Part shown: positions 5,183-18,309 of the stretch, in pieces
How positions within the stretch are numbered: position 1 is the first letter of the stretch
Layout: the number at the start of each line of letters is the position of its first letter
Translations under genes and position numbers: made by a program
Notes under the pieces: generated by a model
Told to the model about the DNA's origin: nothing
Database searches by the model: none
Seen by the model: the letters and a program-made list of their open reading frames with translations, nothing else
Assembly (NCBI GenBank): GCA_012520995.1
Contig: JAAYNI010000003.1
Location: 1-64,000 of the forward strand
DNA from: Candidatus Rifleibacteriota bacterium
Lineage (GTDB): Bacteria > Muiribacteriota > Ozemobacteria > Ozemobacterales > Ozemobacteraceae
Length of the DNA: 64,000 nucleotides
Direction of reading: 5' to 3'

Positions 5183-5406
5183 ACCTCTAATGAAGAGGGT
5201 CTATGCGGCGAGAGGATTCTGTACGGCACGAGGATTTTGAACAGAATTTGCGGATATTTGAAACCTTAATGTTTCATTTGTTTGTTTATTTTGTAAGATT
5301 ATCTCCTTTGGTGTCTCATAAATTTACTCCTCTCCCATTTATGTGGTTGTTCTGATACTTTCTCTCTTCTTGCAATGATGAATTGATTTTTTTCAGGGAG
5401 TATTTT

Positions 5407-8400
5407 ATGAGAAAAATTTTTGCTCTTATATTTTGTGCAGTTTTAACAACACTGCTTGTTCTTTCTGGCTGCGGCGGTTCAAAGTCTTATGACAATGTGA
5501 ATGCCTTTTCCTCCCGCTCCGATACAAAGAATTATGCAAAGGAAGATGATGTTTCTTTAAAGTTCGGAGATGCGACTCTGAATATACCTTCTAATACCGC
5601 TAAGAGCAATTTTACCCTTAAAATTACAGAAATTCCTGCTACTGTTCTTCCAGAGGAAAAGAAAGAAGAGCTCAGACAGGAATACGGAATTCCTCCTAAG
5701 TATGATATTGCAAGTTCTCTTTATGACGTAAATATTACCTATTCTTCTGCCTCCAAAAGGTTTTCGACAAGGTTCTCTACAGCAGATGATATTACAGGAA
5801 AAGCAGAGCTGATAATTAACTTTATTGCTTATGCCGGTAAAAAATATGTTGTAATGTTTGTTTCCAAAGATCGTTCCGCTAAGCTGTTTACACCGCTTTA
5901 TGATATTGGAGTGGGGCCTGTTACAGTAAGATTGGAAACAAATAACCTTTCAGGTGTCTATATTATATTGGCTTTACCTGATGATTTTGATGAAGCTGCT
6001 ATTACCGGCTTTAATATTCAAAGCGATAAACTTATATTGGTCGCTCCTGCTTCAGAACCAAAATTTCTCTCTGATCTAACGATAACTTCTATTTTGGAGT
6101 CTTCCAAACCTTCTGATTTTGCATCTCCGATTCTTAAAATAAAATCTTCAGAGCCTTTTGATCTCGGAGCTGGTTTGATAGGCAGCTTGGAAGATGGTTA
6201 TTACAAGGCGGAAGCTCATTTCCCTAATGAGGTTAATATTACAGCAGAGATTGCGGCTCGTATTTTCACAATTCCAATGCGAGATGTCCTTTATAATCCA
6301 GAAAAGCATCCGCCTCAACTCTTTGTCTGGGCTGAAACTCCAGATGCAGACGGAATTTATCGTTCCTCGGATATCCTTTCTATTGGTTTTGGCAGAGAGC
6401 CTCGCCTTGTTTCTTTTCAACCTGCTGAAGGTGCTCAAGATGTCCCTGTAAATACTCCCATAAAGATAACCTTTTCTGAATCCATGGATGAGTCTTGCAC
6501 AAAACAGATCATAGTCAAAGATGACGAAGGTGAAGTCGCTGAACTTGCCAGAGCTTTAAGCTCTGACAAGAAAGTTCTGACTGTTCAACCTCCTGCGACA
6601 TTATGGAAGAGCAGCACCGCTTACACGGTAATTGTGCCTGATACTGTCAAAACTGTTGTCGGAGCGGGTGTTGCCAGTGAGACTTTCTCCTTTACAACCG
6701 CAGAGAAACCTTACGTGGTTTCTACAGTTCCTGCAGACGATGCTATTGATGTTACTGTTCACTCTCTTTTAAAGATAACCTTCTCTGAAGCTATGGATCT
6801 TTCTTGTGCAAAACAGATTATAGTGAAAGATGGAGAAAATAAGCTTGTTGATCTTGCTGGTAGCTTCAGTTCGGATAATACAGTTTTGACTATTCAGCCT
6901 CCCGCAACATTATGGAAAAACGATACCACATATACAGTTATTATTTCTGAAGAGATGAAGAATGTTTCAGGTGCGAGTGTTGTTCCGGCAACATTCTCCT
7001 TTACAGTTATATCTGCTTTTAAACCTTATGTGGCTTCTACTGTTCCTGCCGACGATGATAAAGATGTGGAATCGAATAGTCCTATAAAGATAATCTTTTC
7101 AGAACCTATAGATTCTTCCTGTAGCAGTCTGATCACTGTAAAATGCGGAAATGATACAGTAGAATCCCTTGCAAAAAGCTTCAGCAATGACAATAAAGTT
7201 TTGACTATTCAGCCTCCATCAACATTCTGGGAAAGCGGTGCCACATACACAGTAACTGTGCCTAATGAGGTTAAAAATCTTTCAGGTGCAAATATTGCTC
7301 CTCTAACCTTCTCCTTTACCATAATGTCGGATTTGAAACCTTGTGTAGTTTCTACTGTACCTGCTGAGGATTCTATAGATGTTGCAGTAAATACATCGCT
7401 AAAGATAACTTTCTCTGAACCGATGGATCCTGCTTGTGCAAACATGATTGTTGTAAAATGCGGTGATAATACGATAGAAAACCTTGAGGGAACTTTTAGC
7501 TCAGATAATACAGTTTTGACTATTGAGCCTCCCGCAACATTATGGAAAAACAGTACCGCATACGCAGTAACTGTACCTGATACTGTCAAAACACTTTCCG
7601 GTATGTTTGTTATCAGGAAAAACTTTTCTTTTGTCACTGCTAGACAACCTTATGTAATTTCCCATATTCCTGCAGATGACGGAAATGTTGGAGTGAATAC
7701 CTCTATAAAGATAACGTTTTCTGAACCTATGGATGCATCCTGTGCTAATCTGATTACTGTGAAATGCGGGGACGATACAGTAGAGCCACTTGTGAAAAGC
7801 TTCAGCTCAGATAATACAGTTTTGACTATTGAGCCTCCCGCAACATTATGGAAAAATGCTGCTTCATATCTTGTCTCTGTGCCTAAAAAGATGAAAAGCC
7901 TTTCAGGTGCGAATGTTGTTCCTGCGACTTTCTTTTTCACTGTGAAGCTGGCTTTAGATAATTATTTGGATTCTGTAACCCCCCTTGACGGAGCTTCAGC
8001 AGTTCCTATAAACACTCCTATTAAAATAAGCTTTCTTGAGCCGATTGATCCTTCTTGCGAAAATCTTGTTTTAGTGAAAGAGCTGGCAAAAGAAGGAGAG
8101 GATGAAGTTATCCTTGAAAATCTTGTCAGAAGCTTCAGCTCCGACAATAAAGTTTTGACTATTCAGCCCCCTGCGGCATTGTGGAAAAGCGGCACTCCAT
8201 ATACTGTTACAGTGCCTGATACCGTCAAAACAATTTCTGGAATGGCACTTGTGGCTAAAACTTTCTCATTTGTAACTGTTCTGAAACCTTATGTGGTTTC
8301 TCATGAGCCTGCAGATGGTAAAGAAAATGTGGCTGTGAATGCTCCTATAAAGATAACTTTCTCAGAAGCTATAAATGATTCCTCTGCAAATGTAAATTTA

Positions 8401-10053
8401 ATAGCTGTGAAATATTTGGATGCTAATAATATAGAGCATACTATGGAAAACCTTTCAAGGACTTTCAATAATAACAAGACATCTCTGACTATTGAGTTAC
8501 CTGTCGGAACATTATGGAAAAATAGCACTGAATATACGGTCACAATACCGGATACTGTCAGAACACAAGCTGGTATGGGCGTTGTAGAAAAGAGCTTTTC
8601 TTTCACAGTGACAGGGCCTTTGACGGTTGCTTGCGGTAATGTTAATCCTGCAAATGACGAGCCATTTGTTCTGAATTTCAGTTCTGTTCCTGATCGGGCA
8701 TCATTGAATTTAAAAAATGTTACTCTCAAGCAAGGTGATGATGAACTGATACTTGGCGATGACTATGATTTCACGCTCTCAGATAAAACACTTTCTATTG
8801 CTCCTTTGCCTAGTGGCTCATTCTGGAAGTGTGGAGAAACTTATAGTGTAACCCTTGGAACAGAAATAAAAGACAAAACTGGAAACGCGATGGCAAAGGA
8901 TGTTACATTCTCCTTTGTTGTGACTATGTTCGGAGGCGGAAGCGGCAGCATTACTGATCCTTATATTGTCAGAAATGTTTATCATATTGATAATATACGC
9001 GCTGGTTATCTTGACAAACACTACAAGCAGACTGCGAATATAGATTTGAGCACACACCTCGCCGAATATTATCAAGATGATGGCTGGCTCCCAATAGGCG
9101 ATGATAAAACTCCCTTCAGCGGTTCTTATAACGGCCTTAACCGTTCTGTGACAGGTCTCTGGATAAAGAGAAAATCAGACTCTTATGTCGGTTTGTTCGG
9201 AAAGATCTATGAGGGCGCTGTGGAGAATCTGAATGTCGTGATTCCATCTGGCGCAGAGATCTTGGGATATTCGAATGTTGGCGGTATAGCTGGTCTTTTG
9301 GTCGGAGAACGTGCTAAAGGAAAAATAGCGAATTGTACTGTTTCTGGCAAAGTCAGTGCTATTGGCACTATGGTAGGCGGTATTGTCGGAGAGCTTGGAG
9401 AATATAACAAAATAGATCTTTGCAGTTTCTCTGCTGGAAAAATAGAAGGAAATGCTTCTGTAGGCGGAATTGCAGGAATTATTCGTGCTAAGGCGAATGT
9501 CTCAAACTGCAATGTCATTCAGGATACACAGGTCATAGGCCGAGGAGATTCTGTAGGCGGTATTGTGGGTTGTGCAAACATAATGTCTCCTGTTGATCCT
9601 GGCAATCCTTCAAAGATTCTTGGCTGCAGCTTTAATGGCTATGTCATTAACTTGGCCGAGGTGCCTCCCACAGGTTCTTCGTCAGCAGCAGGCACTGGCG
9701 GTATAGTCGGGAACTGCTCAACAGACTTTGACATAGAAAACTGTACGGTTCAAGGCGCAATCAAAGCTGAAAATGTTTGTGAGGTTGGCGGTATTGTAGG
9801 ACACAGTGAAGCTGCTTTGATTTTCAATTGCTCTTTTAACAGTGCTGAACCTATAGGTATTGTAGGTGATGACATGGTCGGCGGAATAGCTGGATGGTCT
9901 GAGTTTATAGCTGCTCCGGCATCACAGGAAATAAAAGACTGCGGCGGCACTGCTAATATACTAGGAAAGACTAATGTGAATCCTATTGTCGGATATGGAA
10001 AGCCAACTTTGAACAATACTCCAAACTCCGGCAACTTTAAAGTTAACCCATAA
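5407..10053 (+). CDS. Giant surface lipoprotein with Ig-like repeats and a GLUG-type C-terminus
   Basis: A 1548-residue predicted lipoprotein. The signal peptide ends in a lipobox (LSGC, Cys22). After about 300 unassigned residues come seven clear repeats of roughly 95-105 residues. Each opens like PYVVSTVPADDAIDV, continues with KITFSE and ends with an FSF motif. They resemble bacterial Ig-like Big_5 (SbsA-type) domains. An eighth repeat is degenerate. The last 350 residues contain GLUG-like units (VGGIAG, VGGIVG) seen in surface and adhesin proteins. The ATG at 5407 was chosen over an upstream TTG because it follows AGGGAG and begins the signal peptide. Repeats share long DNA identity, including 53 bp at 7498-7550 and 7804-7856, so repeat number may vary. 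A surface adhesion role is inferred. Confidence 0.85.
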   Translation: MRKIFALIFCAVLTTLLVLSGCGGSKSYDNVNAFSSRSDTKNYAKEDDVSLKFGDATLNIPSNTAKSNFTLKITEIPATVLPEEKKEELRQEYGIPPKYDIASSLYDVNITYSSASKRFSTRFSTADDITGKAELIINFIAYAGKKYVVMFVSKDRSAKLFTPLYDIGVGPVTVRLETNNLSGVYIILALPDDFDEAAITGFNIQSDKLILVAPASEPKFLSDLTITSILESSKPSDFASPILKIKSSEPFDLGAGLIGSLEDGYYKAEAHFPNEVNITAEIAARIFTIPMRDVLYNPEKHPPQLFVWAETPDADGIYRSSDILSIGFGREPRLVSFQPAEGAQDVPVNTPIKITFSESMDESCTKQIIVKDDEGEVAELARALSSDKKVLTVQPPATLWKSSTAYTVIVPDTVKTVVGAGVASETFSFTTAEKPYVVSTVPADDAIDVTVHSLLKITFSEAMDLSCAKQIIVKDGENKLVDLAGSFSSDNTVLTIQPPATLWKNDTTYTVIISEEMKNVSGASVVPATFSFTVISAFKPYVASTVPADDDKDVESNSPIKIIFSEPIDSSCSSLITVKCGNDTVESLAKSFSNDNKVLTIQPPSTFWESGATYTVTVPNEVKNLSGANIAPLTFSFTIMSDLKPCVVSTVPAEDSIDVAVNTSLKITFSEPMDPACANMIVVKCGDNTIENLEGTFSSDNTVLTIEPPATLWKNSTAYAVTVPDTVKTLSGMFVIRKNFSFVTARQPYVISHIPADDGNVGVNTSIKITFSEPMDASCANLITVKCGDDTVEPLVKSFSSDNTVLTIEPPATLWKNAASYLVSVPKKMKSLSGANVVPATFFFTVKLALDNYLDSVTPLDGASAVPINTPIKISFLEPIDPSCENLVLVKELAKEGEDEVILENLVRSFSSDNKVLTIQPPAALWKSGTPYTVTVPDTVKTISGMALVAKTFSFVTVLKPYVVSHEPADGKENVAVNAPIKITFSEAINDSSANVNLIAVKYLDANNIEHTMENLSRTFNNNKTSLTIELPVGTLWKNSTEYTVTIPDTVRTQAGMGVVEKSFSFTVTGPLTVACGNVNPANDEPFVLNFSSVPDRASLNLKNVTLKQGDDELILGDDYDFTLSDKTLSIAPLPSGSFWKCGETYSVTLGTEIKDKTGNAMAKDVTFSFVVTMFGGGSGSITDPYIVRNVYHIDNIRAGYLDKHYKQTANIDLSTHLAEYYQDDGWLPIGDDKTPFSGSYNGLNRSVTGLWIKRKSDSYVGLFGKIYEGAVENLNVVIPSGAEILGYSNVGGIAGLLVGERAKGKIANCTVSGKVSAIGTMVGGIVGELGEYNKIDLCSFSAGKIEGNASVGGIAGIIRAKANVSNCNVIQDTQVIGRGDSVGGIVGCANIMSPVDPGNPSKILGCSFNGYVINLAEVPPTGSSSAAGTGGIVGNCSTDFDIENCTVQGAIKAENVCEVGGIVGHSEAALIFNCSFNSAEPIGIVGDDMVGGIAGWSEFIAAPASQEIKDCGGTANILGKTNVNPIVGYGKPTLNNTPNSGNFKVNP

Positions 10054-10079: not shown

Positions 10080-10110
10080 GAGCTTCAGAGGAAAGTTTCT
10101 TCTGAAGCTC
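10080..10110 (+). other. Strong hairpin behind the lipoprotein gene
   Basis: A perfect 10-bp stem (arm GAGCTTCAGA, 10080-10089 with 10101-10110) lies 27 bases past the stop. No T-run follows, so it is a terminator candidate only if factor-assisted. It may otherwise protect the 3' end of the mRNA. Confidence 0.5.
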
Positions 10111-10241: not shown

Positions 10242-13094
10242 GTGAAGTATCGCAGACTTATAACCCTTTTGCTTGGTTCTCTATTATTTTTATGCAATAT
10301 TCAAGCTTTCGCAAGAACTGATTCCGGTGCCAGATTCGCCAATCTGTATGGCGAAGTTAACGTGCGCCCTGATGATGAATCAGACGGAGCTTATGAATAT
10401 GCTGAAGAAGATACGATTCTTTATGTGAACGATCGAATCAGAACCGGTACAAATTCGGGAGCGGCGATAAACCTTAGAGATGCCACTTTGACTATTATGA
10501 AACCTGAGAGCATTCTTGTATTGAAAGAAGCTTCTCCCTCCAAGATGGCTTATAATGTTGCTGGAGGCAAGGTTTGGTTCAACTTTAAGAAAATAATGAC
10601 TGAAGGCGCAGTGACTGTGGAAACCAGCAATGCGGTTGCAGGTATTGAAGGTACAACTTGTCTTGTCGAAGAGGATACAGAAAGAGGTTTGAGCAAATTC
10701 AGTTTGCTTAAAGGAAAGCTCAGAGTCAGAAACAAATATACTGACGAGTTTTACACCTTGAATGCAGGTGAAATGCTTTCGATCAGTAACAGAGGCGGAG
10801 CGAGAAAAGGCGCTGTTACAACCAGTATGCTTGCCAGGGAATTAGCCTCTGATTTTTCAGAAACCATAAAGCGTTCAAAGAATCAAGAGGCTCTTACAGA
10901 AGGATTGATCGAAGTCTATACAACAGATTTGGAGGAAACTTCGGCTTCTTTCAAGAAACGCCTTGAAGAGCTTAAGTCCAACAGAAGCAGGGAAGACTGC
11001 TCTAAGCTTTTGCAAGATATAAGAAGATACAGCGGTGTTTTCTTTGAAGCTGATGCGCTGGTAACCACTGTTAAAAAAGATTATCCTTCGCTTGCGAAAT
11101 CACCTGCTTTCTCAAAATTTATAGAAGTTTTGCAAAATACAAGAACATTGTATGCCAATCTTTTGAGGGAAGCCGAAGATCTGATGAAAATATCCGCTGA
11201 TACAGCTCCTGTTGGAAGCGGTAAATCGGCCGAATCGGAAAAAACTGAAGAAAAATCTAAAGCTGACAAAAAAACAGAAAAAAAGAAAACTCAGAGCCAT
11301 TTAGGCAGTGCTATGAGTCCTAGAGATGCTGCAATTCTTGAAGAGGCTCAGAGAAATCTTTTGGATAGTCTTATAAAGGTTCGTGATCTGGAGCATGATG
11401 CTGCTCAAGTTAGGAGTCAAAAATGGTTTAAAGCTGCGGCGACTACCTGTACAAGAGAATTGGAACGGCTTCAATCAGTTAAAGAATCTCTGTCGCTCAT
11501 TTCTTCAGACAGAAGAAGTTATATCAGGATAAGAGATACAGAGCTCAAAATAGATGATGCCATGAGACTTATAGGAATGAAAATTCAAGATTATACAGTC
11601 TATCAAATACCTAGTGAATACTTGGATTTGATGCGCGATTTGGAGCAACAGATAAGCAATTTCGCTAATACCTCTTCTTATGGCGGTGCAGCTACACCAT
11701 CTCCTTCTATGAGGCCTTCAACTCATATGAGTCCAATCAGATTGCAGGCATCGGCAGCTTCTGCGCCTAATCTTTCAGATCTTACAAACCTTTATCGCAA
11801 AGCGGAAAATGTCTATAAAACAGTTGAAAGAGCTTCTGCAAACGACAAATATACAACTCTTGAGAAACGCCAGTTTACTCAGAATTGGCAGAGCGCGCAG
11901 AGCCTTTATAATGCAATAGCTTCTTACAAACGAACAGATCCCGATTTTGCGCAAAAATTTTATCAGGGCTATACAGGCGGAGAACGTTTGCAAGCGGAAA
12001 TCGATAAGCGTGAGCGTTCAATAGCTAACTCTCTGGGTATGTCGATATCTCAAGGTCAAAATACTATTGACGATAGAATTGATGAAATAAATCAAGAGCT
12101 TGCTGATAAGAGAAGCGAAGCTCAAAGTCTGAAATCAGGCATAAGCCAGCAAGAAGCAGCAGTTGCAGCTGCACAAGCAGAATTAGATAGCTTGCTTGCT
12201 TCTTTGAACGCATCGGAAGAACAAGTGGCACTTAAACGAAATGAATGGCTGCAAGCTCAGCAGGCTCTTGCAAGATTACAGGCAGCCCTTGCCGATATTC
12301 TTGCGGAAGCGCAGAACATTCAAAATGAGATAGACCGTCTGGATGAGCAAAGAAATGGTTTGTATAGTGCTTTGCGGGATGCTGAAAGCCAAAAAGCAAA
12401 TTTGCAAAATGAAATTGATAATTTGAATAGTCGATTATCTGGTTTTTACAATGACCTTAATGAGTCTAATGGAGACTTAAGAGGTGTTAACAGCCTATTG
12501 GCTCAAAAGACAGCGGAAAAGCAAGCCATAGAAGCTCTATTGGCTGAAATCAATGCGAATGCTAATGTCCCGGGACAAAGTTATAGTCAGTTTGATGATG
12601 ATGATATAGACGAATTGGAAGCTCAAATACAGAGTTTGCAGAATGAAATAGGAGGTTTGCTTGTCCAAAAGAATGATATTAATTCTGCTATCACTTCAAC
12701 GAACAATAAGATCAGCAATTTGCAGGGAGAAAAGCATGGGAAGGAATCAGCAAGAGATGCATTTGCTGAGAGTATATATGGAACAAGTCAGGAGATAGCA
12801 AGCCTTGACGGCGATATTGATAGACGGAATAAACTTCTGGAAGATGCAGAATCTGCTCTGGCTCGCCTTGAAGGTTTTTATGATGAACAAAATAGTGTCG
12901 TGACAGGTTATAAAGAAGCTTTGGATGACGCAGAGGCTGAAAGAGATGAGGTCAGGGGAAATGTAAATCTTGCTGAATCAGATTTGTCTGAACAGGAAAC
13001 TGCTCTTGAAGAGGAAAAAGGTCTTTTAGATGCTGCAAACAAAGCCTTGGAACAGCTTGAAGCTGAAAAAGAATTCTTGGAAAACGATGAGTAA
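10242..13094 (+). CDS. Exported FecR-domain protein with a long coiled coil
   Basis: A 950-residue exported protein. The signal peptide spans about residues 1-25. A FecR-type domain follows (about 30-180; GTNSGAAINLRD, AGGKVWFNF, NAVAGIEGT, LNAGEMLSI are typical). The next region is helical, with a Lys/Glu-rich linker near 325-350 and a Ser/Pro linker near 485-510. From about residue 580 to the end the sequence is continuous Gln/Glu/Ala-rich coiled coil. The GTG start has GGAGG six bases upstream. Standalone periplasmic FecR domains usually bind envelope components rather than act as the FecA/FecI regulator. The next gene starts 5 bases after the stop and an adenylate cyclase follows, suggesting one envelope complex or signalling unit. 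The exact role is unknown. Confidence 0.8.
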   Translation: MKYRRLITLLLGSLLFLCNIQAFARTDSGARFANLYGEVNVRPDDESDGAYEYAEEDTILYVNDRIRTGTNSGAAINLRDATLTIMKPESILVLKEASPSKMAYNVAGGKVWFNFKKIMTEGAVTVETSNAVAGIEGTTCLVEEDTERGLSKFSLLKGKLRVRNKYTDEFYTLNAGEMLSISNRGGARKGAVTTSMLARELASDFSETIKRSKNQEALTEGLIEVYTTDLEETSASFKKRLEELKSNRSREDCSKLLQDIRRYSGVFFEADALVTTVKKDYPSLAKSPAFSKFIEVLQNTRTLYANLLREAEDLMKISADTAPVGSGKSAESEKTEEKSKADKKTEKKKTQSHLGSAMSPRDAAILEEAQRNLLDSLIKVRDLEHDAAQVRSQKWFKAAATTCTRELERLQSVKESLSLISSDRRSYIRIRDTELKIDDAMRLIGMKIQDYTVYQIPSEYLDLMRDLEQQISNFANTSSYGGAATPSPSMRPSTHMSPIRLQASAASAPNLSDLTNLYRKAENVYKTVERASANDKYTTLEKRQFTQNWQSAQSLYNAIASYKRTDPDFAQKFYQGYTGGERLQAEIDKRERSIANSLGMSISQGQNTIDDRIDEINQELADKRSEAQSLKSGISQQEAAVAAAQAELDSLLASLNASEEQVALKRNEWLQAQQALARLQAALADILAEAQNIQNEIDRLDEQRNGLYSALRDAESQKANLQNEIDNLNSRLSGFYNDLNESNGDLRGVNSLLAQKTAEKQAIEALLAEINANANVPGQSYSQFDDDDIDELEAQIQSLQNEIGGLLVQKNDINSAITSTNNKISNLQGEKHGKESARDAFAESIYGTSQEIASLDGDIDRRNKLLEDAESALARLEGFYDEQNSVVTGYKEALDDAEAERDEVRGNVNLAESDLSEQETALEEEKGLLDAANKALEQLEAEKEFLENDE

Positions 13095-13099
13095 ATCTT

Positions 13100-15223
13100 A
13101 TGAGCTTAAATAAACTTATTTCTTTCAGACTTGTTCTTCTTGCTTTCTTGGCGCTTGGCTTAGCGTTTGCTTCAATACAGGAGGCAGCGGCACTGTCTGC
13201 AGCTTCTTCTGCAACATTGCAAGCTTTTAGACGCTATGAAAAGACCTTTTTGCAGGCTGAAAGTGAGCTTAGGAAACTTCAACAAGATCTTACGGCGGCT
13301 CTCACTGCAGGCGATGCTTCCACAACTCAAGAACTCTTGGGTAAGGCTTCCCAAAAAATGCAATTGCTGGCAAGAGGATATTCCGATATGGAAAATCTTT
13401 ATTATTCCACTCTTGCAAGCAATAAACCTGATGGAAGTCAGCTTCATGCAGGTTTTATGAAAATATATGATGCTTATCATAAAGCTTTTATGTTTCATAA
13501 ACACAATATAGAGAGCTTGCCCGAGCAATTTGCTGCTAATCAGCATAAAACTGAGGAAAAGCTTGCTGCTTTGCCTTCAGCAACGCAGTTGCCAAAAAAA
13601 CAGGCAGAACTGCCTGTTGCTTTGTCAGAAACCAAAGAGCTTGTTGAAACAGGGGACTATGAAGGCGCATCTTATACTCCCAGTGAATTGGAATTGCAGA
13701 TTGATACTTTGCTTAAGTCTTTGTCCAGCAAAAGAGCTTCCTTTACAGAAACGGCAACTGCAAAGGGAGCCGCTTTAAAGATTAAAGGTTCGTTGATGCT
13801 CAAATATTCTGAGATCAAGGAGACTATAACTGAACAGAATACAGTTGTTCCTGTTGTTACGGCTAAGAGTACTCTTTATGACAAATTGAGCCAAGCAAAG
13901 CTTTTTGCTGTTTATAATTTCAACAGCGGCAGTTTTACTCTTCAGGAAGATTATCAGGCTAGACAGAGAAACGAAAAGATTCATGAGCATTTCTTGACAT
14001 TGGCTTATAACAAGAAAATGACCAGCAATGTTACTCTGGTTTTACGAGACAAGCTCAGATTGGCTGATTATCCGGATGAAACTTACAAAAACTTCAAAGA
14101 CAATACAGCAGAGATTGTTTTAGACAACCAGCGGGGCAACAATAACTTTTCTTATTCAGCAGGCCTTGTTAACAGGCGTTATAAAGATATATCCTACTCA
14201 GATTTTGATCAGATACTGATGAATTTCCAGCAAAGCTCCTATAATGAAGGAAAAACCTTTTATCTGGATTATGCTGGCGAGCTTACATCCTATAAGAGCT
14301 TTTCTGATCTTGACTATGACAGTCATAGCCTCTACGCGGAATATAGCTCCGATTTTACGGGAAATAACAGCACTCTGCAGTTTTCTGATTCTTTCATGTA
14401 TTTTAATTACATTTCGCCTGATTTGATTTTCTATAGAGATGATTATATAGATAATACAGCTCGTGTTTCATATTCTTTGCCAATCAACTCCAAAGCTGAC
14501 TATACTATTGAAACAATTCATAACAAAAGAAAGTATGACAAAGACCATTTGAGAGGTTATCAGGAACTGGACTTTTTTAATCAGGTGATCTATGAATTCT
14601 CTCCGAAAGAAAGGGTGACACTTAGCTTCAGATATATTGATAATGATGAGAACATTAAGAAAATGTCTCATGAAAACTATGTGTACACAGGTTCATATAG
14701 ACGCAGACTCTCTGAGCAGGTGATCTTCAATTTCGACAAAATTTATCGCAAAAGAGATGGAAACAATTCTATAGTAGGCAAAACGATGGATTTTGACGAA
14801 AATCAATATAATACCGCAATAACTGTCAAAGCCAGACAGCATTGGATGTTCAGTTTGAAAAATGTCTATCTGGAACGCCTTTATGATTTGCCTTGGTATC
14901 CGGACTACAGATATAATCATTTCTCGGCTGAGGCCAGATATATGCCTCCTGGAAATGAAATGTTTACTATTGCTGTCGGGAACCGCCATTTTTCTTTCAG
15001 AAATTATAATCAGGCTCGCAAGCCATGGGAAACAAGGCATCAGCCTGTTGGCGAGATGATTTATACCAAGAGACTCAAAAAAGATTTAGACTTCAATCTG
15101 ACTCTTTCTTATGAGAAGACTTGGCAGCAGACTTACGATATAGTGACACAAGAACTCCTTTATGACTTCAGCAAACCTCGTACAGACCGAGAAATAGTGC
15201 TTTCACTTAATCTCGACTTCTGA
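13100..15223 (+). CDS. Predicted outer-membrane beta-barrel protein
   Basis: A 707-residue exported protein. The signal peptide is about residues 1-31. Residues 32-230 are helical and charged. From about 250 to the end the sequence alternates polar and aromatic residues, rich in Tyr, Phe, Asn and Asp, as in amphipathic beta strands. It ends with LSLNLDF, the C-terminal Phe that the BAM machinery recognises on outer-membrane barrels. It starts 5 bases behind the FecR-domain gene and must be co-transcribed. I recognise no named family. Secretion channel, porin or sensor partner of the FecR protein are all possible. The barrel call rests on sequence pattern only. Confidence 0.7.
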   Translation: MSLNKLISFRLVLLAFLALGLAFASIQEAAALSAASSATLQAFRRYEKTFLQAESELRKLQQDLTAALTAGDASTTQELLGKASQKMQLLARGYSDMENLYYSTLASNKPDGSQLHAGFMKIYDAYHKAFMFHKHNIESLPEQFAANQHKTEEKLAALPSATQLPKKQAELPVALSETKELVETGDYEGASYTPSELELQIDTLLKSLSSKRASFTETATAKGAALKIKGSLMLKYSEIKETITEQNTVVPVVTAKSTLYDKLSQAKLFAVYNFNSGSFTLQEDYQARQRNEKIHEHFLTLAYNKKMTSNVTLVLRDKLRLADYPDETYKNFKDNTAEIVLDNQRGNNNFSYSAGLVNRRYKDISYSDFDQILMNFQQSSYNEGKTFYLDYAGELTSYKSFSDLDYDSHSLYAEYSSDFTGNNSTLQFSDSFMYFNYISPDLIFYRDDYIDNTARVSYSLPINSKADYTIETIHNKRKYDKDHLRGYQELDFFNQVIYEFSPKERVTLSFRYIDNDENIKKMSHENYVYTGSYRRRLSEQVIFNFDKIYRKRDGNNSIVGKTMDFDENQYNTAITVKARQHWMFSLKNVYLERLYDLPWYPDYRYNHFSAEARYMPPGNEMFTIAVGNRHFSFRNYNQARKPWETRHQPVGEMIYTKRLKKDLDFNLTLSYEKTWQQTYDIVTQELLYDFSKPRTDREIVLSLNLDF

Positions 15224-15261
15224 GAACGAGAGCTTTTTAAGCTTTAAACTTCTCGTCAGGA

Positions 15262-18200
15262 ATGGAGAAAAACTCGAAAAGCGAAAGAGGCAGTTATTTA
15301 GCAAGAACCTTGGCTATAGCCTTGGTTCTTTTTACCGTTGTTCACATGCTTTTGGCGACTGGAGTTTTTGTTCCTTCAGAGACCTATATACAGTCTTTGA
15401 TTTACCAGATGGGGCATAATCCTAAGGCTTTGCTGAAAAAGAAAAATGCCAAATATACTCAGAGAGTTTACTTGGCGAAGAAGGATCAGACGACTACCCA
15501 TCTGATCAGAAAAGACCCTAAAAGGGAAGATTTTGCTTCTATAATAGAGTTCTTGTCCTCTAAGCATGAGGTTAAACGTCCTTTTGCGCCTAGATCTAGA
15601 AACTATGAGATTTTTAGGCTGGATTTCGGATATTTTCCTAACATCAAAAACTTTTTGCCAATCAGAACCTCTTTTACTGAATGGGCTTATGGTAATCATT
15701 CGATACCCGAGGATCTGCTTCAAGAAGCTAAAAACACTTCTTCAAAAGACAAACTTACAGAACTTTTAGCTTCTACAGATTATAGAAGTGAAGCCTCAAA
15801 AATTTATTCACAGCAATTTTCAGCACAACCTTCAAGTCGCGGTATAACTTCAATTGTAAGATTAGAAGAGTATATTTTCCCTCCGCGCGGGAAGAATATT
15901 TTCAAGGTTTTGGCAGGCGTTTCTGAAGATCCCATGATGCCTTTTTTGCTTTTTGGCAAAAGGGATAAGGCCTTTTGGGATAACTTTGAAAATGATTATG
16001 CCGAAGCTCTTGCAGAGCCAACATTCAGGCAAGATAAACTGTATGAGAATCCTTATAAACTGTTTTATGTCTGGGAGAATATTTTTGCGAATCTGCTGAC
16101 ATCAACATTTTCTTTAGAGGTGAAATTTTTTCCGACTATAGAAAAGCCTTGCGGATATGATGAGCCTGATTCAGAACAAAAGTCCTTTGTATCTATTTCC
16201 CTCAAACTGCATACCAAAGGTTTGGCGCCTACATACACAGTAGAGCCGGCATCGGCAGTTGCAGTTGACTTCGTTCTTACAGGCAGGCTAAGGCCTGAAA
16301 CAGACGAAAGGCTTGCAGCTGTCTTAGAAAACTCTTCTATTCCGATAGTCTTGGCGGAATTTCTCAGGAAAGAAGAGTCAGCTTCCCAACTTCCAATGGA
16401 TATTCCTGAGGCCCCCAGAATACATGAAGAGGGTGAAAAAGGGATTGTGACAATAAAACAGGAGTTGAGAGAAAGCGCTCAGACTGTCTATGTCACAGCA
16501 AAGCCTGATCCCATGTTTACAGAAGGTTCAAATATTTCGAGAGCTTTGATTAATATTAAGGTTTCGAGCAACGGTTTGGTAGACTCTATGCCCTTGTTCG
16601 GTTATGACCATGGCGAGGATGTTTTGAAGCCTTCATTTGCCTTGCTTACAGCAGTTTTGGCTAAAGACAGGATTGATGCTACGGGCGGAACATATGAACA
16701 GGCAATGTATGAAGAGCTGGCTAAACACAAAGATAACGTTAAAAATGGAATATATCCGAAAAGGCTTGTTATCAATGATATCGATTTGCCATTGGATAAT
16801 AATGGCGGTCTTCAAATTTATTATTTGGGAACCACTGTCAGCGACAAAAACGGAAATCCGCCCGCTTTCATGTCTTACTCCTTTTATGAGCTTTATGAAG
16901 AAAACTTGGCGAACAAGTATCTGAATCTCTATCCTGAATCTTCTCTTTTGAAACCTGATACGCAAAATGCTCACAGAAGATCTTTGGGTATTTCTTCTGG
17001 CAATAAAGCGGGCAAAATTATTATGATGGGCACCATGAAGCTGACGGACATGGACTTTTATCATACGCCTTTTACTTACAGCACTCCTTTTACAAAACAG
17101 TCTGAAAAAATGGCTGGTATAGAAATTCAAGCCAATGCTGTGGCTAATATTCTTGACGGTCTATATCTTAAACCAGCTGATCTGCGTATGTCGGCTGCGG
17201 TTTTGTTAGGTGCAGGGCTTTTTCTTGCAGTTTTGCTTTCTTATTGCCCGCCTGTTTATGCCGTATTTCCAATGTTTGCAGCTATAGCGGCTGTGTTTTA
17301 CAGTTCTTATTATTCATTTCATCATCTTCACCAGCCTTTGCACATAGCTCATATATTAGTGGCTATGCTGGCAGTTTGGGCGGCTACTCTTATCAGACAT
17401 TATGTTTGGCAACGAAGAAAAACTGCATCTGTTAAAAATATGTTCTCTAAATTTGTTTCAGCGGATGTAGTCAAATACATGGTCGAGCACCCTGATTTAG
17501 TCAAACCTGGCGGAGAAAAGGCAGAACTCACTATTTTCTTCTCTGACTTGGCTGGTTTCACGACAATTTCAGAAAAAATGCAACCAGAAGCCTTAGTAGA
17601 GCTTTTGAACGAATATTTGGCAGCTATGACGGACATTCTCTTTAAATACGGCGGAACTCTTGACAAATTTATAGGAGATGCAGTTATGGCTTTCTGGAAT
17701 TATCCAAAGCAGGATGAGAATCATGCACTTCATGCTTGTTTATGTGCCTTGGAAATGCAGGAGAAAATCAGAGAACTCCAAATAGGGTGGAAGGATAGAG
17801 GATTGCCGATTTTATCAGCAAGAGCAGGTTTGAATACAGCGGAAGTAGCAGTTGGCTATATGGGAAGCGAAAGGTCTCAGATGAACTTCACCTGCATAGG
17901 AGACGGTGTCAACCTGGCTTCACGAATGGAGGGAGCCAACAAAGAATACGGTACTCAGCTGATGATCAGTGAGGCTCTGTTAAAGAGAGTTAAAGATGAC
18001 AGGCTTACTGTGCGCTTTTTAGATTTGCTTACTTTGAAAGGAAAAGCGAAACCTGTCAAGGTTTATGAACTTATTTGCAGAGCCGAAGCTTGTACTACTG
18101 CTTTGAAGGAGAAAATCGAAAAGTATGAGAAGGCTCATAAGCTTCATTTGGAACGCAAGTTTGATGAGGCTATAGAGTTGTTTGAAGAGATTTTAAAAGA

Positions 18201-18309
18201 ACACCCTGAAGACGGGCCTTCAAAAACTTATCTTGAAAGATGCAAGCATTACAAAGACAATCCGCCTAATGAAGATTGGGACGGCAGATTTATAATGACA
18301 ACCAAATAA
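15262..18309 (+). CDS. Transmembrane class III adenylate cyclase with CHASE2-like sensor
   Basis: Predicted to make cAMP from ATP in response to an envelope signal. Of 1015 residues, one N-terminal helix (about 15-35) precedes a large extracytoplasmic region (40-630) ending in a CHASE2-like segment (GLVDSMPLFG). Three membrane helices (about 640-718) follow, then the cyclase domain (about 755-945) and a TPR-like hairpin (about 960-1000). Catalytic residues are intact: metal ligands Asp762 (FFSDLAGFT) and Asp806 (FIGDA), Lys802 for the base, and transition-state Asn884 and Arg888 (VNLASR). Thr877 sits at the second base-selecting position, as in class IIIb/c adenylate cyclases. The ATG is 38 bases behind the barrel gene. 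The AGGA before it is unusually close, so translation may depend on coupling. Confidence 0.88.
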   Translation: MEKNSKSERGSYLARTLAIALVLFTVVHMLLATGVFVPSETYIQSLIYQMGHNPKALLKKKNAKYTQRVYLAKKDQTTTHLIRKDPKREDFASIIEFLSSKHEVKRPFAPRSRNYEIFRLDFGYFPNIKNFLPIRTSFTEWAYGNHSIPEDLLQEAKNTSSKDKLTELLASTDYRSEASKIYSQQFSAQPSSRGITSIVRLEEYIFPPRGKNIFKVLAGVSEDPMMPFLLFGKRDKAFWDNFENDYAEALAEPTFRQDKLYENPYKLFYVWENIFANLLTSTFSLEVKFFPTIEKPCGYDEPDSEQKSFVSISLKLHTKGLAPTYTVEPASAVAVDFVLTGRLRPETDERLAAVLENSSIPIVLAEFLRKEESASQLPMDIPEAPRIHEEGEKGIVTIKQELRESAQTVYVTAKPDPMFTEGSNISRALINIKVSSNGLVDSMPLFGYDHGEDVLKPSFALLTAVLAKDRIDATGGTYEQAMYEELAKHKDNVKNGIYPKRLVINDIDLPLDNNGGLQIYYLGTTVSDKNGNPPAFMSYSFYELYEENLANKYLNLYPESSLLKPDTQNAHRRSLGISSGNKAGKIIMMGTMKLTDMDFYHTPFTYSTPFTKQSEKMAGIEIQANAVANILDGLYLKPADLRMSAAVLLGAGLFLAVLLSYCPPVYAVFPMFAAIAAVFYSSYYSFHHLHQPLHIAHILVAMLAVWAATLIRHYVWQRRKTASVKNMFSKFVSADVVKYMVEHPDLVKPGGEKAELTIFFSDLAGFTTISEKMQPEALVELLNEYLAAMTDILFKYGGTLDKFIGDAVMAFWNYPKQDENHALHACLCALEMQEKIRELQIGWKDRGLPILSARAGLNTAEVAVGYMGSERSQMNFTCIGDGVNLASRMEGANKEYGTQLMISEALLKRVKDDRLTVRFLDLLTLKGKAKPVKVYELICRAEACTTALKEKIEKYEKAHKLHLERKFDEAIELFEEILKEHPEDGPSKTYLERCKHYKDNPPNEDWDGRFIMTTK

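Follow-up and report, generated by a model that had tools for sequence, protein, structure and literature searches.

What do an exported FecR-domain protein, an outer-membrane barrel and a CHASE2 adenylate cyclase do when their genes stand in a row? Three such large genes fill positions 10242-18309 of the window, a stretch of 64,000 nucleotides of Candidatus Rifleibacteriota DNA, and the list of open reading frames (ORFs) bears out that gaps of only 5 and 38 bases separate them, as a preliminary description had it. We lean, by a little, towards the answer that they encode a signalling chain from the cell surface to the cytoplasm of the kind formed by NsrA and CyaK in the plant symbiont Sinorhizobium meliloti, in split form. 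According to the available parts of the genetic work on that system (PMC7529298, PMC10463352), the outer-membrane protein NsrA and CyaK are both required for the signal response. The trio is most likely a split, divergent version of such signalling from the envelope to cyclic AMP (cAMP), new as a variant, with a proposed mechanism that is plausible; it most likely differs from NsrA-CyaK in the family of its barrel, which is new, and in a coiled coil confined to this lineage. The parts are as follows.

10242-13094, plus strand: FecR-domain periplasmic protein of 950 amino acids (aa), with a GTG start and a signal peptide (Pfam, alignment, model)
10431-10718, plus strand: its FecR domain, residues 64-159 (Pfam; fold as in anti-sigma periplasmic domains; profile match to NsrA)
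12033-13088, plus strand: pair of long helices spanning residues 598-774 and 786-949, a probable coiled-coil hairpin, lineage-specific (alignment, model, periodicity)
13100-15223, plus strand: predicted outer-membrane beta-barrel protein, 707 aa, a new family without a Pfam name (ORF, Pfam, alignments, model)
13199-13567, plus strand: the predicted helical, periplasmic domain at the N-terminus of the barrel protein, residues 34-156 (model)
13778-15217, plus strand: the predicted 24-strand barrel, residues 227-706, with a C-terminal Phe (model, fold matches)
15262-18309, plus strand: CHASE2 class III adenylate cyclase, 1015 aa (ORF, Pfam, profile match, tree)
16249-17205, plus strand: its CHASE2 domain match, residues 330-648 (Pfam)
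17521-18066, plus strand: its catalytic domain, residues 754-935, with D762, K802, D806, T877, N884 and R888 (Pfam, alignment)

Class III adenylate cyclases use two metal-binding Asp residues, a Lys/Thr pair for the adenine and an Asn-Arg pair for the transition state. All six residues listed above are present, as had been claimed, and align with those of the solved CyaB; R888 is shared by 18 of the 19 aligned cyclases and the other five are identical in all 19. The Guanylate_cyc match has an E value of 3.3e-21, and that to CHASE2 (1.3e-13) covers only profile positions 69-243 of 257, that is, a divergent CHASE2. In a quick tree the protein groups with the cyclases of its relatives, as the sister of the clade's 19 remaining rows (support 99). 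CHASE2 was found in 38 of the 39 genomes of the phylum, and of the two CHASE2 proteins in the source genome one is a GGDEF protein. In the same genome, a 2082-aa ORF matches the cyclase domain at two separate places (L071, contig C99, 9184-15432), and two cyclase genes of 945-950 aa stand in tandem (L070, contig C51, 1557-7265).

Pfam recognises the FecR domain with an E value of 1.3e-8 and recognises no sigma or anti-sigma part in the 950-aa protein. In the model, a beta domain (residues 27-191) is followed by helices up to residue 575 and then by two very long helices. The beta domain matches the fold of anti-sigma periplasmic domains (4m0n and PupR 6ovk), and the domain profile matches residues 19-214 of NsrA (probability 93.8). 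The coiled coil had been put at about 370 residues, which holds for residues about 598-949, with moderate predicted local distance difference test (pLDDT) values and a predicted template modelling score of 0.39. Its helices, if straight, would measure about 26 nm (598-774) and 24 nm (786-949). Because the model has a low-confidence break at residues 775-785, the tail is probably an antiparallel hairpin. In each arm the periodicity of 3.5 residues is roughly double the mean of the shuffled sequences, but one or more of the 300 shuffles go beyond it, so the support that it lends the coiled coil is moderate.

That the middle protein is a barrel is upheld by an AlphaFold2 model built from a 17-row alignment (mean pLDDT 81.6); the frameshifted row L023 was left out of a later alignment and of this model. 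A signal sequence, the helices, a disordered linker (157-224) and the 24 strands ending in Phe follow one another, and no Pfam family covers the 707 residues. The top Foldseek match is MtrB (E value 6.8e-14, TM-score 0.45), which also comes first in VIA-align (Z 19.2, root-mean-square deviation 5.7, 442 residues); the chaperone-usher pores PapC and FimD are next (Z 18.2 to 16.7). The model looks like a large plug-less barrel, and fold likeness alone is silent on function. We rejected several candidate identities. A TonB receptor does not fit the missing plug family (Pfam), the modelled helical N-domain and the 24 strands. For a sequence relative of NsrA the probability was 0.2, in a comparison of limited sensitivity since NsrA entered as a single sequence. 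No sequence kinship was detected with the TPR-barrel proteins described below, and the search among sequences of solved structures gave three weak matches only (E values 0.34 to 0.74). Pfam finds no TPR in the FecR and barrel proteins of the window, which are encoded by two genes. Longer versions of the barrel protein (1105 and 1087 aa) occur at L054 (2420-5737) and L057 (7476-10739), with an insertion of about 400 residues between the N-domain and the barrel; there, FecR genes stand on both flanks of the barrel gene.

Across phyla, FecR genes are strongly concentrated beside CHASE2 cyclases. We analysed the best 80 of 580 confirmed CHASE2-cyclase loci, mostly from Alphaproteobacteria and also from Omnitrophota, Deltaproteobacteria, Elusimicrobia, SAR86 and Marinimicrobia; they were picked by likeness to an alignment (A5) containing two cyclases already known beside FecR (CyaK and that of Paracoccus). 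The seeds of the FecR hidden Markov model (HMM) included the window family, L124 and L126, and none of the 80 loci. It found a FecR ORF in 39 of them: 32 within 1 kb of the cyclase, 4 at 1-3 kb, 3 at 3-6 kb and 0 at 6-9 kb. In terms of density, this is 32 in 151 kb of flank within 1 kb versus 3 in 694 kb at 3-9 kb. A TPR-barrel protein, FecR and the cyclase occur together in 14 of the 80 loci, some of the 14 being fragments, and the seeds of the TPR-barrel HMM were drawn from the same 80 loci, so that this count is no test against chance. L154 and L159, seen by eye, come on top. For example, Thalassospira (L178) has TPR-barrel, FecR and cyclase in this order, 3 and 13 bases apart, and the order on Paracoccus pAMI5 is the same. 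At a SAR86 locus (L222, 7536-8858) a TPR-barrel protein adjoins the CHASE2 cyclase and no FecR ORF was found. A rule-based search gave no excess of outer-membrane proteins around CHASE2 cyclases: of the exported-looking ORFs, it picked out 6 among the 209 lying within 3 kb and 6 among the 232 at a greater distance.

Within the phylum, we searched 39 genomes for the barrel, 24 from its own family and 15 from outside. It is present in 23 of them, all in the family (23/24 versus 0/15). At 22 of the 25 barrel loci the gene immediately 5' of the barrel gene, in the same orientation, encodes a FecR protein; two of the other three end at contig edges, and at the remaining one, on contig C75 of the source genome, the homologue has no FecR domain. 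FecR and the barrel are therefore a fixed pair in this family. Cyclase and barrel share a contig in 8 other genomes (G011, G013, G016, G017, G018, G022, G024, G026), 4.4 to 14 kb apart. In G011 the two genes are on opposite strands; in the remaining 7 they share a strand, with the cyclase downstream. G009 and G010 have the cyclase on a different contig although that of the barrel is long.

In the source genome, contig C62 carries an intact operon with a GH57 gene (cluster 5 - TPR - DUF4912 - GH57) without the cyclase, a second barrel copy on C75 is flanked by RNase D and M23, and the cyclase stands with the first copy on C84. The FecR-family protein of the second copy (L064, 6259-9294; 294 aa) keeps its signal peptide and helical region and has lost the FecR domain, for which there is no room, as only 136 bases lead to the divergent M23 gene. 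One event of duplication and break-up may have left the cyclase beside the copy that kept the FecR domain; it would have split the ancestral neighbourhood in three and made the barrel copies sisters, as they are in the tree (support 100/100). A deletion of intervening genes could also explain the arrangement. In another genus, G010 encodes FecR, an Ig-like (He_PIG) lipoprotein and a CHASE2 cyclase on one strand with no barrel beside them (L123, contig C174, 506-8545). This is the only one of 19 relatives' cyclase loci at which the FecR HMM was positive; it was negative at the six other cyclase or CHASE2 loci of the source genome (L069-L074) and at two plasmid cyclase loci (L125, L127).

The preliminary description had proposed an envelope-sensing pathway that ends in cAMP. 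This idea is partly supported: it loses from the separation of the cyclase from the other two genes in close relatives, an outcome that the description had itself named as refuting, and gains from the crowding of FecR around CHASE2 cyclases across phyla, the TPR-barrel trios and the NsrA-CyaK precedent. It is revived because the cyclase, its other links broken in the source genome, still adjoins the FecR-barrel pair, and because of the arrangement in G010. A signalling chain is also favoured by the fixed pairing of FecR and barrel, by the loss of the FecR domain from the copy without a cyclase, and by the reported need for both NsrA and CyaK. Such a chain might work as follows. The modelled barrel would sit in the outer membrane with its helical N-domain and flexible linker hanging in the periplasm, to which the signal peptide would export the FecR protein. 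The latter could use its FecR domain or its helical middle to bind the periplasmic part of the barrel, and its helical hairpin of about 25 nm could reach toward the inner membrane, touch the periplasmic CHASE2 domain and so change the activity of the cyclase. With its six catalytic residues, the cyclase is predicted to make cAMP, which could be read by a CRP-like cyclic-nucleotide-binding protein whose gene is present elsewhere in the source genome. The chain is likely to read a polymer or protein at the surface, or else the state of its own barrel or that of the Ig-like lipoprotein encoded upstream.

On the other hand, a number of observations weigh against a signalling chain. The trio, described as one unit, is not conserved as such: among the 24 family genomes, the cyclase adjoins the barrel, and all three genes stand together, only in the source genome. 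A GH57 branching-enzyme gene is directly 5' of the cyclase in 10 of 18 relatives' loci and an RNase D gene 3' of it in 12 (19 loci were read; L122, with no cyclase over the cut, was excluded). In 41 of the 80 loci across phyla, some with short flanks, the HMM found no FecR ORF. Of the 38 FecR ORFs found no more than 4 kb from a cyclase, 17 precede it in the same orientation and 21 do not, being convergent, divergent or otherwise placed relative to it, so the association is not that of one operon. The barrel proteins of the TPR-barrel clusters are smaller, TPR-headed and of another family, and the window barrel belongs to a 24-strand family without detectable sequence kinship to the single NsrA sequence compared. 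Judging from the alignment, the coiled coil stressed by the preliminary description cannot be essential to this kind of system, because it is confined to this lineage among the aligned sequences (the tail is lacking in all 22 other rows). Finally, SMc02177, a separate FecR protein beside cyaD1, is reported in the available part of PMC5498481 to be dispensable for shoot-signal perception and to be itself a target of cAMP-Clr.

The last point suggests a reversal of direction, in which cAMP from the cyclase turns on the FecR and barrel genes and these are outputs rather than sensors, as for SMc02177 and SMc02178 near cyaD1, both reported as activated by cAMP-Clr and dispensable for perception (PMC5498481, available part). 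The CRP-like gene of the source genome would suit it. We consider it unlikely, as NsrA, which bears both FecR and barrel, is reportedly required for perception; moreover, the cyclase lies downstream in the same putative unit, so that control by cAMP would be autoregulation, and both directions may hold.

The family neighbourhoods raise a further alternative: FecR and barrel could be a station at which Ig-like lipoproteins are exported or assembled at the surface, or serve cell-wall work, with the cyclase a bystander brought in by rearrangement. Recurrent neighbours of the barrel in relatives are M23 peptidase, Ig-like exported proteins and flagellar FliK; the order M23 - FecR - barrel - Ig-like and the neighbour FliK (flagellar hook) in several relatives fit such a station, as do the likeness of the model to the plug-less conduits MtrB, PapC and FimD and the place of the relatives' cyclase in another operon (GH57/RNase D). 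It accounts less well for the cyclase lying 4-14 kb from FecR-barrel in 8 other genomes, 7 of which keep it downstream of the pair on one strand, and for FecR adjoining a cyclase without the barrel in G010 and in other phyla; we regard it as improbable, though not greatly so. The other operon is itself conserved (L105, 945-12694, and relatives: TPR - DUF4912 - GH57 branching enzyme - CHASE2 cyclase - RNase D/HRDC - C25 peptidase) and possibly links cAMP to glycogen-type metabolism.

Chance or decay, that is, a degenerate locus with no joint function, would go with the long tree branches of the window proteins, but all three ORFs are open, the catalytic set is intact and the conserved barrel columns are retained, and we think it very unlikely.

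A bolder proposal is that a FecR protein, a helical-headed outer-membrane barrel and a CHASE2 cyclase form a general, phylum-crossing class of receptors that turn a surface signal into cAMP without sigma factors or TonB. NsrA-CyaK would be one fused example, the barrel could be replaced by an unrelated plug-less 24-strand one, and the FecR hairpin of about 25 nm could serve as a periplasm-spanning rod to the cyclase. This is doubtful, and we put it forward tentatively. In our searches of the open-licence PubMed Central (PMC) literature we recognised no other paper that treats the FecR-CHASE2 association as a general class, the MtxA case (see below) apart. The association across phyla suggests a broad role of FecR domains outside sigma-factor signalling. 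To our knowledge, the route of an outer-membrane signal across the periplasm to an inner-membrane cyclase is open even for NsrA-CyaK; in the split version receptor, linker and cyclase are on separate genes, so that contacts can be tested pair by pair.

Two features lie directly upstream of the three genes.

5383-10053, plus strand: Ig-like putative surface lipoprotein with eight Big_5 repeats (ORF, Pfam)
10080-10110, no strand: inverted repeat with 10-bp arms, in the stretch that separates the genes of the Ig-like lipoprotein and the FecR protein (read from sequence)

The putative lipoprotein (1556 aa, LSGC near the N-terminus, GLUG motifs) is possibly a partner of the trio; relatives have Ig-like proteins 3' of the barrel or between FecR and cyclase. 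The inverted repeat, which has no T run, is possibly the end of the upstream transcript; no terminator-like site was found in the two gaps between the three genes. Among the window neighbours scanned (PLD, lipid genes, Ig protein, glycosyltransferase, ribosomal S2 and others) Pfam shows no gene for an extracytoplasmic function (ECF) sigma factor or a membrane anti-sigma factor, and there is no phosphodiesterase and no multihaem cytochrome gene.

How does the trio compare with known systems? The porin-cytochrome conduit of MtrB resembles the window barrel in fold only; the latter is without a Pfam match and no multihaem cytochrome is encoded among the scanned neighbours. Fec-type signalling (FecA-FecR-FecI; PupB-PupR) shares an outer-membrane barrel with a periplasmic FecR-type domain, here matching PupR 6ovk in fold, whereas the trio lacks a TonB plug, a membrane-bound anti-sigma part and, among the neighbours scanned, a sigma gene, and its output is a cyclase. 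The MtxA cluster of magnetotactic bacteria has a gene for an exported Ig/TPR protein followed by a CHASE2 cyclase gene; the available text of PMC4439547 does not contain the word FecR. In the TPR-barrel/FecR/CHASE2 clusters (Campylobacterota, Paracoccus pAMI5, Thalassospira, Rhizobium) FecR protein and cyclase are on separate genes, as in the window. Those of Campylobacterota comprise a CHASE2 cyclase, a phosphodiesterase, a FecR outer-membrane protein and a TPR protein, and thus differ in that the FecR protein is itself named an outer-membrane protein and a phosphodiesterase is added (PMC9239204, available part).

The closest comparison is with NsrA-CyaK. CyaK (SMb20776) is one of three receptor cyclases in S. 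meliloti (PMC5498481), and the NsrA barrel is placed at residues 600-1200 (PMC7529298), each according to the part of the paper available. On S. meliloti pSymB (L124), a 1219-aa FecR-TPR-barrel ORF overlaps a CHASE2 cyclase ORF; from its size, barrel position and pSymB location rather than the record name, we infer that this locus is NsrA-CyaK. NsrA is thus one chain with TPRs, whereas FecR and barrel are two proteins in the window, where the FecR protein also bears a coiled coil of about 350 residues. In both, an exported FecR-domain protein has a CHASE2 class III cyclase encoded nearby, the window FecR and cyclase are homologous by profile to their L124 counterparts, and the order is the same: FecR domain, helical region, outer-membrane barrel (in the window, as modelled) and CHASE2 class III cyclase.

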